From an uncultured Lachnospiraceae bacterium (lineage in GTDB: Bacteria; Bacillota; Clostridia; Lachnospirales; Lachnospiraceae), in the NCBI GenBank assembly GCA_947627365.1, contig CANQVT010000025.1, positions 1-33,521 of the forward strand: a stretch of DNA of 33,521 bases, in the 5' to 3' direction. Each line of letters starts with the position of its first letter. The first letter of the stretch is position 1. Of the stretch, positions 2,845 to 33,447 are shown in pieces. A program made the position numbers and the translations under genes. The notes under the pieces are model-generated. The model was given only the letters and a program-made list of their open reading frames with translations. It did no database searches and was not told the DNA's origin.

Positions 2845-4224
2845 ATGTATCAGATAGATTATAACCAGCCGGCGCATGTACATTTTATCGGGATTGGAGG
2901 AATCAGCATGAGCGGGCTGGCGGCTGTGCTGCTGAATCGGGGCTTCACCATAAGCGGCTCCGATTCCCACGAAAGCCCTCTGACCGCCTGGCTTTGCGGA
3001 CTCGGGGCATCCGTCTCATATCCGCAGAGCGCCGCCAACATCACCGATGATATCAGTGTGGTCGTGTACACGGCCGCGATCCACCCGGACAATCCGGAGT
3101 ATCAGGCAGCAAAGACAAAAGAAATCCCCATGCTGACACGGGCGGAGCTGCTCGGCCAGCTCATGAGCAATTACGATACCTCTCTGGCCGTATCCGGCAC
3201 GCACGGGAAGACGACGACCACCTCCATGCTCTCGCATATCATGATGCGCTGCAGCCTGGACCCGACGATCTCAGTCGGGGGGATTCTCCCGTCCATCGGC
3301 GGCAACGTCCGCATCGGCGCCTCGGAATATTTTCTGACCGAGGCCTGCGAATACACAAACAGCTTTTTAAGCCTGTTCCCGACACTCGGGATCATTCTCA
3401 ACATCGACGCCGACCATCTCGACTTTTTCAAAGGCCTCGATGATATCCGCCACTCCTTCCGGCGCTTCGCCGAGCAGATCCCGGAGGGCGGCGCGCTCGT
3501 CATCAATGCGGAGATCCCGCGGCTTAATGAGCTCACGGCCGGCCTTTGCTGCCGTGTCGTCACCTACGGCGTCGGCTGCGGCGACTACCAGGCTGCCAAT
3601 GTCAGTTATGGCGAGCTGGGACAGGGCAGTTTCGACTTAGAGAAGGACGGGCAAACCCTCGGTCACTTCACGCTCTCCGTCCCCGGCAGGCACAACGTCT
3701 CGAACGCGTGCGCCGCGCTTGCAGCCGGTTTTCTGCTCGGGCTTCCCGCCAGTCAGATGGCCGAAGGCCTCGCAGAATTCAAAGGGACAGACCGGCGCTT
3801 CCAGAAAAAGGGCGAGATCGGCGGCGTGACGATCATCGACGACTACGCGCATCATCCGACGGAGATTCGCGTCACACTCGAAGCCGCGAAAAAGCTGCCG
3901 TACCGCCAGGTATGGTGCGTATTTCAGCCGCATACCTACACCCGCACAAAGGCGCTGATGGACGATTTCGCAAAAGCACTCTCCATCGCCGACAAGATCG
4001 TGCTCGCCGATATCTACGCGGCGCGAGAGACCGACACGCTCGGGATAAACTCCGATCTTCTGCGGCAGAAGCTCTGTGACATGGGTAAGGACGCATGGTA
4101 CTTCCCGACCTTCGACGAGATCGAGACTTTCCTGCTGGAGCACTGCGAATCCGGCGACCTGCTGCTCACGATGGGCGCGGGAGACGTCGTGAAGATCGGC
4201 GAGAAGCTGCTGGGACTTTCATAA
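2845..4224 (+). CDS. murC: MurC, UDP-N-acetylmuramate--L-alanine ligase
   Basis: Cytosolic ATP-dependent ligase adding L-Ala to UDP-MurNAc, the first amino-acid step of peptidoglycan precursor synthesis. At 459 residues it is typical. The UDP-binding N-terminal domain starts HFIGIGGISMSGLAAVL (about 11-27). The ATP loop GTHGKTTTTSM is near residues 117-127, then TEACEYTNSFL, IDADHLDFFK, PGRHNVSNACAALA and the C-terminal-domain motifs DDYAHHPTEI and VFQPHTYTR. ATG 2845 follows AAGGAG (2831-2836) at 8 nt. No other mur gene is adjacent and glgC diverges, so it is probably monocistronic. No clear terminator hairpin follows; the next bases are the DnaA-box region. Confidence 0.97.
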   Translation: MYQIDYNQPAHVHFIGIGGISMSGLAAVLLNRGFTISGSDSHESPLTAWLCGLGASVSYPQSAANITDDISVVVYTAAIHPDNPEYQAAKTKEIPMLTRAELLGQLMSNYDTSLAVSGTHGKTTTTSMLSHIMMRCSLDPTISVGGILPSIGGNVRIGASEYFLTEACEYTNSFLSLFPTLGIILNIDADHLDFFKGLDDIRHSFRRFAEQIPEGGALVINAEIPRLNELTAGLCCRVVTYGVGCGDYQAANVSYGELGQGSFDLEKDGQTLGHFTLSVPGRHNVSNACAALAAGFLLGLPASQMAEGLAEFKGTDRRFQKKGEIGGVTIIDDYAHHPTEIRVTLEAAKKLPYRQVWCVFQPHTYTRTKALMDDFAKALSIADKIVLADIYAARETDTLGINSDLLRQKLCDMGKDAWYFPTFDEIETFLLEHCESGDLLLTMGAGDVVKIGEKLLGLS

Positions 4225-4545
4225 ATCCGGCAGCAGCAGCCACAGACACGTTGGCACACCCCGCCCCTCTCAAAAAATTTTTATAAACAAATTTATCCAC
4301 ACCGAAAGCTGTTGCCTCTGCGCAAGGTTTTCGGTGTTTTCCACATTATCCACAGGTTTATGCACAATTCGCTCGCATATTCCCTCCCCATTTTCTGTGG
4401 ACACTACCGTTGACATAACATTTCGACAAAATTCTCGCCGCTTCTGCAATTTTTCTTTTCGCCCTGTATTATTGTCAACTTTTTATCCACATTATCCACA
4501 CAGTCCACACGCCCTCCCGCATGGATAGCCCTCTCAAAATGGATG
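4225..4545. other. Gene-free AT-rich region holding a DnaA-box cluster
   Basis: No ORF is supported. The region starts with an AT-rich run (4271-4296) and contains the DnaA boxes listed separately. A near-inverted pair, GTTGACATAA near 4410 and TTATTGTCAAC near 4470, flanks the space between the two box groups. A murC terminator was looked for and not seen. Confidence 0.6.
4293..4500 (+). promoter_or_regulatory. DnaA-box cluster (four perfect, two relaxed boxes)
   Basis: The bacterial DnaA-box consensus TTATCCACA occurs perfectly at 4293-4301, 4346-4354, 4483-4491 and 4492-4500. Relaxed TTWTNCACA matches are at 4337-4345 (TTTTCCACA) and 4358-4366 (TTATGCACA). All six are in the same orientation. 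4337-4345/4346-4354 and 4483-4491/4492-4500 are exactly back to back. A given 9-mer is expected about 0.26 times on both strands of a random 33.5-kb window, so this is not chance. Binding by DnaA follows from the known consensus. The role (control of the downstream replication genes, or titration of DnaA) is inferred. Confidence 0.85.
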
Positions 4546-4574
4546 TTCTCATTTCCGGCAAGTTATGGTATACT
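4546..4574 (+). promoter_or_regulatory. Predicted promoter of the DnaD/helicase-loader operon
   Basis: TGGTATACT gives an extended -10 (TATACT 4569-4574), with a weak -35 TTCTCA (4546-4551) at 17 bp. It begins 45 bp after the last DnaA box and implies a leader of about 575 nt before the ATG at 5155. That leader would contain the dispersed repeat. Confidence 0.6.
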
Positions 4575-4603
4575 GTTCGTGTTCAATTCATATAAAATGT
4601 AAT

Positions 4604-4760
4604 CCGGACGCCCTGCAAGGGCTTGCAATGTCAGGGCCGTGCGGAAGCGCCCCCTCACGTTCGTTCAGCGGCATATCGTCGGAAAGCATTTGAGAACGCT
4701 TCGCGTTGCTTTCCGACTCCCGCTCGCGCTTAATCGGGCACGCAGCGGTGCATAAGCTCG
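4604..4760 (+). repeat. 157-bp dispersed non-coding repeat, copy 1
   Basis: Matches 33291-33447 over 157 bp with two substitutions (4618 A/C and 4659 G/A) and no gaps. It contains a perfect 11-bp inverted repeat, GTCGGAAAGCA (4678-4688) and TGCTTTCCGAC (4707-4717), whose loop holds a second small stem (AACGC 4695-4699, GCGTT 4703-4707). TGTCAGGG at 4629-4636 can also pair with CCCTGACA at 4799-4806, outside the shared part, so this copy may be the longer form. No ORF, transposase or target-site duplication is visible. Confidence 0.93.
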
Positions 4761-5154
4761 CTTACGCTCACCAAGCACCGGTGGCCCTCAATGATCTGCC
4801 CTGACACAGCAAGTCCCTTTTGCCGGGCTGTGCTTGGCATGCGGCAAAGCATTTATACTTATGCATTTTTGCAGAATAGATCAGCGAATTATGCGTCTGT
4901 CACAAACAGCCGCAGGAATGCCGGATGTTGCCTGTCCGCACGCAAACGATAGGCAGTTCGACGCAGGATTCGCGAGCATAGCGACAGATGTCGGAGCATG
5001 TCTGAGCGAAGCGAGTTTGCGGAGACAGCTGTCCATAGGCGGCGCAGCGAATCAAGGAGAACAACGTGTTTGCGGTGGACAGGCACATCGACTCCTGCGG
5101 CGTCCGGATAGCCAACATAAGCAAAACGCGAAGTTCATTCTGGAGGGAGAGACC
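4761..5154 (+). other. Structured leader before the DnaD-domain gene
   Basis: Continues from the repeat to the ATG at 5155 and is rich in inverted repeats. TTTGCCG (4819-4825) pairs with CGGCAAA (4842-4848), and further on there are CGACA/TGTCG near 4981-4992, TGTCT/AGACA near 4999-5027 and the 10-bp palindrome GACAGCTGTC. The frame of the downstream gene stays open back to 4834, but the composition and hairpins look non-coding. No known riboswitch was recognised. Confidence 0.5.
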
Positions 5155-6219
5155 ATGAAGATCTTCACAGACGCCCCGGAGGGCATGACGGTCGTGCAGA
5201 ACGCTTTCATCGACCGCTTCATGCCGCACGCGAACGGGGAATTTGTCAAAGTATATTTGTATCTGCTCAGATGCGCCGACTCGGGGCAGGAGCTTTCGCT
5301 CGCCTCGATCGCGGATGTCTTCGATCACACGGAAAAGGACGTGCGCCGCGCGCTCGCCTACTGGGAAAAGCAGCAGCTTTTGAAGCTGAAGCTGTCATCG
5401 GATGGGACGATCTCCTCCGCGACCTTTCTGACTCCGCCTGCGGAGGAACGCGCAGTATCTGTCTCTTCCGCTGCTGCCGGACGAGATCAGGACTCCGGCG
5501 CTGCGGCGTCCTCTGAGAATGCCACGGACAAGCCGTCTCTCTCGATCAAGGCGCAGGACATGCCCAGCCGGGCACGCGTCAAGGCACTCTCCGGGCAGAA
5601 AGAGATCCGGGAGCTGTTCTTTATCGCGGAGCAATACCTGCAGCGTCCGCTGGCCTCGGCAGAGCAGGACGACCTCATCTACTATTACGATACGCTTCAG
5701 TTCTCTCCGGATCTGATCGAGTATCTGCTGGAATACTGCATCTCGAAAGGTTCCCCGAGCCGGCACTATATGCGCAAGGTGGCGCTCGGCTGGGCGGAGG
5801 CCGGCATCACTACCGTGACGCAGGCCAAGCAGGACACGAACCTTTACAACAAAAATTACTACGCTGTCCTCAACACCTTCGGCATCAAAGGGCGTGCGCC
5901 GGCCATCCCGGAGCAGGAAATGATGGCGCGCTGGTTTGGCGAATTCGGCTTCTCCATGGATCTCGTCCTGGAAGCGTGCAAGCGCACAATCCGCCAGACC
6001 CATCAGCCTCGCTTTGAATATGCGGACAGCATTCTCAAAAAATGGCACAAAAGCGGCGTATCCTCGATGGCCGATGTGGAGCGTCTCGACGCACAGCGCA
6101 GACAGGAGCAGGAAAAGCCGACACAGAAGCAGTCGGCTTCTGCCCCCAACCGTTTCAACAACTTCTCGCAGAGGAAATACGACTACAGCCAGCTTGAGAA
6201 GAAGCTGCTGAACCAATGA
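5155..6219 (+). CDS. DnaD/DnaB-domain replication initiation protein
   Basis: Firmicute primosome protein that remodels DNA and helps deliver the helicase loader and helicase during initiation or restart. The 354 residues read as an N-terminal winged-helix DnaD domain (about 8-85, with NGEFVKVYLYLLRCADSGQE and YWEKQQLLKL), an acidic/Ser-rich linker, then two tandem DDBH2 (DnaB_2) helical domains. Each ends with the family Y-x3-[IV]-x3-W motif: YMRKVALGW in the first, YADSILKKW in the second. The C-terminal tail is basic and Gln-rich. ATG 5155 was chosen because GGAGGG (5142-5147) precedes it and the protein family starts here. The helicase loader starts 36 nt downstream, so this is an operon. 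The double DDBH2 layout resembles B. subtilis DnaB more than DnaD. Confidence 0.9.
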   Translation: MKIFTDAPEGMTVVQNAFIDRFMPHANGEFVKVYLYLLRCADSGQELSLASIADVFDHTEKDVRRALAYWEKQQLLKLKLSSDGTISSATFLTPPAEERAVSVSSAAAGRDQDSGAAASSENATDKPSLSIKAQDMPSRARVKALSGQKEIRELFFIAEQYLQRPLASAEQDDLIYYYDTLQFSPDLIEYLLEYCISKGSPSRHYMRKVALGWAEAGITTVTQAKQDTNLYNKNYYAVLNTFGIKGRAPAIPEQEMMARWFGEFGFSMDLVLEACKRTIRQTHQPRFEYADSILKKWHKSGVSSMADVERLDAQRRQEQEKPTQKQSASAPNRFNNFSQRKYDYSQLEKKLLNQ

Positions 6220-6255: not shown

Positions 6256-7254
6256 ATGGGACTTACAAATACACAGTACAACACGATCATGAGGGACTAT
6301 CAAAGGCAACAGGCCAGGAATCAGCGTGAGCTCGACGAGCGTACAAGGGAAGTCTACGGGCGTTTTCCGGAATTGTCCGAGCTCGACGGGCGCATCGCGT
6401 CCGCCAGTACCACGTGTGCCCGACGGCTTCTGTCCGACGACTCCGCGTCTCTGAGCGAGCTGCGCTCCGAGATTGCCCGATACTCTGCCCGGAAGGACGA
6501 GATCCTCCATGAGGCGGGCTATCCGGCCGACTATCTGTCGCCGAGATATCGCTGCGCCGACTGTCAGGACACCGGCTATATCGGCTCCAAACGCTGTCAC
6601 TGCTTCGATCAGGCGGCAATCGATCTGCTGTACACGCAGTCCAGGCTGCGCGAAGTGCTGGCGGAGGAAAATTTCTCTACCTTTTCAATGGAATATTACT
6701 CCAAAGAGATCATCGATCCGCTCACCGGTCTCTCCTCCTACGAGATAGCCAGGCGCGCGCTTGAGGAATGTCAGCGCTTTGCGCAGGATTTTGATCAGAA
6801 ATTTGAGAATATTTTTCTCTATGGAGATACCGGCCTGGGCAAGACCTTTCTCGCGCACTGCATCGCGAAGGAGCTGCTGGAGAGCGCCCATTCCGTGGTC
6901 TATTTTTCTTCGTTCGGCCTGTTCGAGCTCTTTGCGGACTCTGCGTTCCGACGAAAGGAAGCCTACGAACAGCCGATCATGGAAGAGCATATTTTCGACT
7001 GTGATCTGCTCATCATCGACGATCTGGGCACGGAGCTTGTGAATTCCTTCGTCTGCTCCGAGCTTTTCCATGTGCTCAACGAGCGAATCCAGCAAAAAAA
7101 AAGCACGCTGATCTCGACGAACCTCCCGCTCGAAACCTTTGCCGACACCTATTCGGAGCGTGTTTTTTCGCGTATTTCCAGCAATTATATCATGCTTCGG
7201 ATGGTCGGCGACGACATCCGCCTGAAGAAGAAATTTTCGTCGGGAAGGACTTGA
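6256..7254 (+). CDS. DnaC/DnaI-type helicase loader ATPase
   Basis: AAA+ ATPase expected to load the replicative helicase. The 332-residue protein has a helical N-terminal part, a Cys cluster beginning at residue 100 (CADCQDTGYIGSKRCHCF, C-x2-C...C-x-C, like the DnaI zinc-binding region), Walker A GDTGLGKT near 191-198, Walker B LLIIDDLGTE, sensor-1 STNLP and the arginine-finger segment ERVFSRI. ATG 6256 was preferred to TTG 6223 or ATG 6235 because GGAG (6244-6247) sits 8 nt before it. It follows the DnaD-domain gene closely, and the pair probably forms the initiation loader. IstB-type transposon helpers share the ATPase core, but no transposase is nearby. Confidence 0.92.
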   Translation: MGLTNTQYNTIMRDYQRQQARNQRELDERTREVYGRFPELSELDGRIASASTTCARRLLSDDSASLSELRSEIARYSARKDEILHEAGYPADYLSPRYRCADCQDTGYIGSKRCHCFDQAAIDLLYTQSRLREVLAEENFSTFSMEYYSKEIIDPLTGLSSYEIARRALEECQRFAQDFDQKFENIFLYGDTGLGKTFLAHCIAKELLESAHSVVYFSSFGLFELFADSAFRRKEAYEQPIMEEHIFDCDLLIIDDLGTELVNSFVCSELFHVLNERIQQKKSTLISTNLPLETFADTYSERVFSRISSNYIMLRMVGDDIRLKKKFSSGRT

Positions 7255-7366: not shown

Positions 7367-8545
7367 ATGGAATTTCAATCCGCTAACGAAAGAAACCTCG
7401 AAACAATCCCGGTCGGTGAGCTTGGCATTATCGCGCTGAAGAGCTGCGAGACACTCGGGAAAAAGATTAACGATTATATCGTACAATGGCGCAGGGAACG
7501 TGAGCATGAGCATTTGGGAAGCCCGCTTCTGCAGACCTACTCCAGGGATTCTTATCTTGTCGAAACCAGCGTCCCCCGCTTTGGTTCCGGGGAGGCAAAG
7601 GGCATCATCAATGACTCCGTCCGCGGCGACGACCTCTATATCCTCGTGGACGTCTGCAATTATAGCCTGACCTACTCGCTGTGCGGGCACACGAACCACA
7701 TGTCCCCGGACGATCACTTTCAGGATCTGAAGCGCATTATTGCCGCCGTCGGCGGAAAGGCGCGCCGCATCAACGTCATCATGCCGTTTCTCTATGAGAG
7801 CCGCCAGCACCGGCGCACCGGCCGCGAATCGCTCGACTGTGCGCTTGCGCTGCAGGAGCTCGTCAAGATGGGCGTGGACAATATCATCACCTTCGACGCG
7901 CACGATCCGCGCGTACAGAACGCGATCCCGCTGCACGGTTTCGAGACAGTGCAGCCGATTTATCAGTTCATCAAGGGATTGTACAAGGCCGCCCCGGATC
8001 TCAAGGTCGACCCGGATCACCTGATGATCATCAGCCCGGACGAGGGCGCCGCGGGCCGCGCGATCTACATGGCCAACCTGCTCGGCGTGGACATGGGAAT
8101 GTTCTACAAGAGGCGCGACTACGCGCATATCGTGGACGGGCGCAATCCGATCGTGGCGCACGAATTTCTCGGCTCTGACGTAAGCGGCAAGGACGTCGTG
8201 ATCCTCGACGATATGATCTCCTCGGGCGACAGCATGATCGACGTCGCCACAGAGCTGAAGAAGCGCAACGCGTCCCGTATCTTCATCTGCTCGACCTTCG
8301 GCCTGTTCACGAACGGTCTCGAAAAATTCGACCGCGCGCATGAGCAGGGCCTGTTCTACGCGATGCTGACGACCAACCTGGTCTACCAGACGCCGGAGCT
8401 TCTGCAGAAGCCGTACTACACCGGCTGCGACCTGAGCAAATACATCGCGCTGCTGATCGACACGCTGAACCACGACGGCTCGGTGAGCGATCTGCTCAAC
8501 CCGGTCGACCGCATCAACGCGTTCCTCGCGAAGCACAGGGATTAG
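7367..8545 (+). CDS. prs: Ribose-phosphate pyrophosphokinase (PRPP synthetase), long form
   Basis: Makes PRPP from ribose-5-phosphate and ATP for nucleotide, His and Trp synthesis. The 392 residues contain MPFLYESRQHRR, the divalent-cation/ATP signature region FDAHDPRVQNAIP (equivalent to the DLH signature), the flexible-loop KRR (MFYKRRDYAH), and the PRPP loop VVILDDMISSGDSM (about 275-289). Classical enzymes are about 310-320 residues. This one is longer by roughly 70, with an N-terminal extension and an elongated C-terminus, and its loops diverge from the classical class I sequence. ATG 7367 follows GAGGAG. It follows the replication genes but has its own promoter. Confidence 0.9.
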   Translation: MEFQSANERNLETIPVGELGIIALKSCETLGKKINDYIVQWRREREHEHLGSPLLQTYSRDSYLVETSVPRFGSGEAKGIINDSVRGDDLYILVDVCNYSLTYSLCGHTNHMSPDDHFQDLKRIIAAVGGKARRINVIMPFLYESRQHRRTGRESLDCALALQELVKMGVDNIITFDAHDPRVQNAIPLHGFETVQPIYQFIKGLYKAAPDLKVDPDHLMIISPDEGAAGRAIYMANLLGVDMGMFYKRRDYAHIVDGRNPIVAHEFLGSDVSGKDVVILDDMISSGDSMIDVATELKKRNASRIFICSTFGLFTNGLEKFDRAHEQGLFYAMLTTNLVYQTPELLQKPYYTGCDLSKYIALLIDTLNHDGSVSDLLNPVDRINAFLAKHRD

Positions 8546-33290: not shown

Positions 33291-33447
33291 CCGGACGCCC
33301 TGCACGGGCTTGCAATGTCAGGGCCGTGCGGAAGCGCCCCCTCACATTCGTTCAGCGGCATATCGTCGGAAAGCATTTGAGAACGCTTCGCGTTGCTTTC
33401 CGACTCCCGCTCGCGCTTAATCGGGCACGCAGCGGTGCATAAGCTCG
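33291..33447 (+). repeat. 157-bp dispersed non-coding repeat, copy 2
   Basis: Second copy of the element at 4604-4760 (two substitutions, no gaps), with the same 11-bp inverted repeat (33365-33375 and 33394-33404). Homology ends abruptly after AAGCTCG at 33447, where copy 1 continues with further structured sequence. Same orientation as copy 1. Confidence 0.93.

Follow-up and report, generated by a model that had tools for sequence, protein, structure and literature searches.

The intergenic region between murC and the gene for a DnaD-domain protein (dnaD) in an uncultured Lachnospiraceae bacterium carries a dense cluster of DnaA boxes, which raises the question of whether the region is a replication origin, a site that titrates DnaA, or a control region for the genes of helicase loading that follow. 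The window analysed here is a stretch of 33,521 nucleotides, and it makes up one entire contig of an assembly of 2.82 Mb (104 contigs; 84.5% complete). An earlier note on this DNA had described four perfect and two one-mismatch boxes at positions 4293-4500, all on the plus strand and including two exactly back-to-back pairs. All six boxes and both pairs (4337/4346 and 4483/4492) were found (Table 1), and their abundance is well above chance. In total, 14 boxes with no more than one mismatch were identified in the window, six of them inside 208 bp, whereas dinucleotide shuffles of the window (n = 100) contained 3.9 boxes on average and 9 at most. The whole assembly contains 25 perfect boxes, including the four inside the 208-bp cluster. 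A second cluster was also found in this genome (locus L046, 5283-5354; G000:C2:63282-63353), consisting of three perfect boxes on the minus strand, of which two are back to back; it is flanked by the 3' ends of two convergent reading frames and is a candidate titration site.

Table 1. Features of the murC-dnaD region and its surroundings in the window.
Feature	Position	Strand	Description
murC	2845..4224	+	Upstream neighbour; Pfam Mur ligase domains
DnaA box, perfect	4293..4301	+	TTATCCACA; 44 bp before first pair
Terminator-like hairpin after murC	4300..4340	+	Arms 4300-4309 and 4327-4336; T run 4337-4340
Group A, back-to-back boxes	4337..4354	+	4337 TTTTCCACA (one mismatch) and 4346 TTATCCACA (perfect)
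Group A, third box	4358..4366	+	TTATGCACA (one mismatch)
Group B, back-to-back boxes	4483..4500	+	TTATCCACA at 4483 and 4492 (both perfect)
Promoter	4546..4574	+	-35 TTCTCA 4546-4551; 17-bp spacer; TG 4566-4567; -10 TATACT 4569-4574
Inserted repeat element, ~500 bp	4602..5107		In dnaD leader; GA-cis RNA match RF02987 on minus strand (4639-4721)
DnaD-domain protein gene (dnaD)	5155..6219	+	PF07261, TIGR01446
DnaC/DnaI-like AAA+ ATPase gene (dnaC), probable helicase loader	6256..7254	+	Assigned by similarity
Ribose-phosphate pyrophosphokinase gene (prs)	7367..8545	+	

The gene order dnaD-dnaC-prs is kept in all 14 named relatives, 11 of which are labelled Lachnospiraceae. The second gene had been taken for a DnaC/DnaI loader gene, and the similarity stands; its product passes the NCBIfam model PRK06835 ('ATP-binding protein') but does not reach the cut-off of either the DnaI or the DnaC model, and the name of loader is thus given by similarity. 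The promoter adjoins the cluster, as the earlier note had proposed, but dnaD does not follow it directly: the start codon lies ~650 bp beyond the last box because the repeat element intervenes. The resulting leader of ~570 nt, which includes this element, counts against control of dnaD by the cluster. The element has terminal inverted repeats when inspected by eye and a partial copy at positions 33291-33447 of the window, and its bulk is flipped in the closest relative (L002, 2242-2670; 95% identity). GA-cis matches number eight in the assembly.

Conservation of the boxes was surveyed in 150 genomes of the family, as the earlier note had suggested. Of these, 146 were read (four were not fetched), and in three of the 146 the end of murC was not readable, leaving 143 genomes. 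A lack of conservation in relatives, which the note had given as a refutation, was not observed: of the 143 genomes, 119 have at least three boxes in the murC-dnaD interval, 129 have at least two, and eight have none. The mean number per interval is 4.45, compared with 0.14 in shuffles. Their arrangement is also conserved, with the first box starting no more than 3 nt from the extrapolated end of murC in 106 genomes and two boxes standing back to back in 111 intervals. Scanning the 150 family genomes for the group A pattern yielded nine matches in nine genomes (including the genome of the window), all directly after murC. Among the 14 named relatives, 11 have a cluster of three or more boxes upstream of dnaD; in two of the others the contig ends too near, and the third (L011) carries an insertion.

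The cluster extends beyond the family but was not found in the loci examined outside the order. In other families of the order, at least three boxes were found at this place in 7 of 14 readable cases (f2, f4, f6, f7, f8, f14, and f16; in f4 the murC end lies ~1 kb ahead of the boxes) and fewer than three in the other seven (f5, f9, f10, f11, f13, f15, and f17); one further stretch was too short and one further genome had no dnaD match, both outside the 14. At the class level, for which the best 30 loci per search of 118 genomes were used, 25 of the best 30 dnaD loci lie outside the order, and none of these 25 has three boxes upstream of dnaD, two having one. None of the 30 best-scoring murC loci outside the order has an adjacent dnaD or more than one box.

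Rearrangements of the locus bear on the question of which gene the boxes belong to. In six congeners (G001, G008, G010, G013, G014, and G015), murC lies in the opposite orientation on the same contig. Five of them (G008, G010, G013, G014, and G015) retain the cluster upstream of dnaD, and dnaD of the sixth, G001, retains one box. No cluster follows the inverted murC in any of the six: G001, G013, G014, and G015 have no boxes at all there, and single one-mismatch boxes occur at +324 in G008 and at +66, +619, and +832 in G010. These congeners weaken the case for murC as the owner of the cluster. At locus L008, ~1 kb separates murC from the box pair, and the boxes lie near dnaD. Contrary to these examples, an insertion of ~3 kb in G024 (locus L011) separates dnaD from the boxes, which lie at murC. 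A trace of a different kind was seen at locus L075 (G133), where the 62 nt before the box pair, 61-123 nt past the murC stop, match the murC 3' end of L083 at 36 of 62 positions (2000 shuffles: mean 16, largest 27). It looks as if murC had been replaced or shifted and an old end of the gene had remained next to the boxes.

In much of the family, group A also overlaps a terminator-like hairpin that follows murC. An anchor box was found in 123 of the 143 loci (99 of which have group B), and in 92 of these 123 the 5' arm of a hairpin followed by a T run covers group A; this arm starts 8-12 nt after the start of the first box in 76 of the 92, and the box within the hairpin is usually the second. 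The same test on group B identified 4 loci. Group A might thus be kept mainly as a murC terminator, its likeness to DnaA boxes being secondary, but we regard this as very improbable: the hairpin includes neither group B nor the pair's first box, five of the six congeners with an inverted murC retain the boxes at dnaD, and a hairpin of the family type over group A was not found in the window, where the boxes are present nonetheless. The hairpin listed in Table 1, which overlaps the first box and box 4337, came from a dedicated search; a simple terminator scan of the window listed none. Termination may constrain group A, without explaining group B. Boxes in the reverse orientation were also noted. 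One located 62-63 bp before the pair in 92 of the 123 loci falls mostly within murC codons where inspected and was set aside, and those near +38, +48, and +60 carry little weight because they partly coincide with the 3' arm of the hairpin.

The spacing between the boxes and the dnaD promoter provides a further line of evidence. Exactly one TGNTATAMT was found between murC and dnaD in 104 of the 143 family loci, and the promoter profile leaves out the other 39. The -35 consensus is TTYTCW. Of the 104 loci, two have G at position 3 and four have A at position 4, although the element still resembles TTGACA beyond random positions (on average 3.3 vs 2.5 of 6). A box is present at -110 to -40 in 95 of the 104 loci. 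Five scrambled 9-mers gave 0-5 matches, compared with 216 for the DnaA box. Measured from the -10 element, the start of the nearest forward box falls for the most part at about -58, -68, -78, or -88, and a compact class lacking group B has it at about -61; in the window, the second box of group B starts 77 bp before the -10 element. In loci with two groups, the phase concentration R is 0.70 at 10.2 bp (n = 84; a figure for which no null was run). For the mixed promoter set, a period of 9.3 bp fits best (R = 0.53, reached by 0 of 3000 nulls; R = 0.40 at 10.5 bp), and tiling of the 9-bp box therefore contributes.

Parsimony on a murC tree of 94 of these genomes requires a minimum of 53 changes of spacing class (fine bins). 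Among 34 sister pairs, 12 differ in spacing by 0-3 bp and 22 by 4 bp or more; of the latter, 15 differ by 8-12 bp and 4 by 19-23 bp (19 of 22; binomial P = 2e-4, with windows picked after the data were seen). Eleven of the 22 differ by 10-12 or 20-22 bp, steps not accounted for by gaining or losing a single 9-bp box. Changes by whole helical turns would be expected from selection on a face-dependent contact with RNA polymerase. The distance from group A to group B also shows a periodicity of 11.1 bp (99 loci; R = 0.53, reached by 0 of 2000 smoothed nulls), but this falls to R = 0.38 (P ~0.01) when each distance is counted once, and the sister pairs are not clean, so that helical phasing between the two groups is suggestive only. 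The boxes are not always needed, because at least three loci whose murC-dnaD interval has no boxes (L091, L096, and L102) retain TGNTATAMT there.

Back-to-back boxes look like the arrays of replication origins, and dnaA was not found in the assembly (84.5% complete), in which the sole DnaA-family match is the loader-like ATPase; the organism's own oriC was not seen because its dnaA is absent from the assembly. The cluster could in principle be the main oriC or a second origin, but the probability of this is negligible. The dnaA gene was found in 26 of 32 relatives searched (not found in six), with boxes nearby in all 26. In G155, the one relative in which GC skew was sampled, a complete genome covered by twenty 15-kb stretches, the skew changes sign (negative to positive) between 715 and 727 kb, with dnaA at 721 kb, and no switch was found around dnaD at 1.0 Mb. 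The skew is negative across the whole window. The cluster is thus probably not oriC, and the earlier note, which had argued against the main origin, was right in outcome, the grounds being the separate boxes flanking dnaA and the skew of G155. A second origin was rejected on the basis of the same boxes in the relatives together with the GC skew in this one complete relative.

The distance to dnaA matters for the other role that had been suggested, that of a datA-like titration site. Among 12 selected relatives, dnaA and dnaD share a contig in 10, and in 8 of these 10 they lie ~100-300 kb apart. The distance is ~99 kb in G079, 153 kb in G116, 239 kb in G057, 278 kb in G155, and 287 kb in G064; for the other three it was counted to the sequence end, assuming closure at dnaA, with dnaD at least 222 kb (G159) and at least 249 kb (G185) from the sequence end and, in G096, 256 kb from the contig end with dnaA at base 1. 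The remaining two distances are 0.67 Mb (G124) and 1.0 Mb (G148). As judged in relatives only, the cluster therefore lies outside oriC but fairly near it in 8 of 10 cases, as a titration cluster would.

The cluster might accordingly bind DnaA near oriC in the manner of the B. subtilis clusters, or of E. coli datA as it was first viewed, with the promoter being incidental. It holds four of the 25 perfect boxes of the assembly, and in the parts of the literature available, six DnaA-box clusters that lie outside oriC in B. subtilis restrain initiation while they are present (PMC13220808, PMC5295017, PMC11019786), although one of these sources gives the early-initiation phenotype yet states, in its accessible portion, that no cluster of significant role is known (PMC5295017). 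Titration alone predicts neither the stepped spacing to a conserved promoter nor the persistence of the cluster at dnaD after inversion of murC, and we consider it unlikely as the principal function. The suggestion of a datA-like site thus keeps its support from distance but leaves the spacing unexplained; titration may add to the control of dnaD-dnaC.

We consider it slightly better than an even chance (probability ~0.52) that the cluster is an upstream control region to which DnaA binds and through which it controls the promoter of the dnaD-dnaC operon, probably as a face-dependent activator. Several boxes lie near the promoter, and both the boxes (119 of 143 genomes) and their placement, in the form of the stepped spacing, are conserved in relatives. 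DnaA control of the loading genes, as put forward in the earlier note, is thus partly supported, by the conservation in the family, the retention of the cluster at dnaD in most rearranged congeners, and the stepped spacing, while the action of DnaA is one that we infer from sequence. In the mechanism proposed, DnaA would occupy both groups, A on the murC side and B on the promoter side. On group B, it would act on RNA polymerase at the promoter, whose extended -10 element is strong and whose -35 element is poor, most likely as an activator required on one face of the DNA, and group A may assist by filament growth or looping. Synthesis of the putative loading proteins would then track free DnaA. 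A feedback loop on initiation could result, because DnaD is described in the material available on B. subtilis as an inhibitor of cooperative DnaA binding.

Activation would be likelier than repression because the boxes lie upstream of a poor -35 element. Repression of the operon from the boxes, by which high DnaA would lower loader synthesis, has precedents in the excerpts at hand: apart from sda, most direct targets of DnaA in B. subtilis appear to be repressed by it (PMC4447404), and E. coli nrdAB is activated or repressed depending on the DnaA level (PMC8203912). Two box groups could also make a repressing loop. Nevertheless, the nearest box mostly starts 58-88 bp before the -10 element, upstream of the polymerase site and not over it, and together with the poor -35 element this makes repression decidedly unlikely. 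A broader form of the activation model, which we put forward tentatively and regard as rather doubtful, is an order-wide circuit in which DnaA on one face of the DNA activates its own helicase-loading partners, DnaD limits DnaA cooperativity, and a box doubles as an arm of the murC terminator.

DnaA is already known as a transcription factor, and several known systems resemble the cluster in part. The sda promoter of B. subtilis likewise has DnaA boxes in its promoter region and, according to the available text of one source, is directly activated by DnaA (PMC4447404). However, sda is a sporulation checkpoint gene, whereas the boxes in the window precede a DnaD/loader operon, fall into two groups, and keep a stepped spacing to the -10 element that is conserved in relatives. 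The B. subtilis clusters outside oriC (Okumura 2012, as cited in portions of reviews) are likewise box arrays away from oriC, several of them near it; unlike for the cluster in the window, no spacing constraint is described for them in those portions, and the direct B. subtilis DnaA targets given in the accessible part of one review include no helicase-loading gene (PMC8203912). In E. coli, datA and DARS are likewise chromosomal box clusters outside oriC that affect DnaA, but they work via the DnaA-bound nucleotide (PMC13220808 and PMC5835720, in the parts available), and B. subtilis is said in the former to be without datA and DARS (PMC13220808). Predicted boxes likewise occur upstream of a helicase-side replication gene, dnaB of the Caulobacter DnaA regulon (PMC8203912, in the part available), but this gene encodes the helicase and not a loader, and the lineage is distant. 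For Clostridioides difficile, the available text of one study names CD3654 as a helicase loader and CD3653 as the closest DnaD homologue (PMC7561715). No report of this cluster, of this target of DnaA, or of this spacing geometry was found in the titles and opening lines of abstracts of the open-licence literature, and an earlier mention is possible.

Outside E. coli and B. subtilis, little is known of how the initiator and the helicase-loading machinery are balanced. With a conserved DnaA array at a constrained distance from the promoter of the loading genes, a direct line of control becomes testable in a large group of gut anaerobes, and the spacing that varies naturally between genera provides a ready mutational series. 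If the order-wide circuit exists, binding of the initiator at the box in the terminator arm may also alter read-through from murC.
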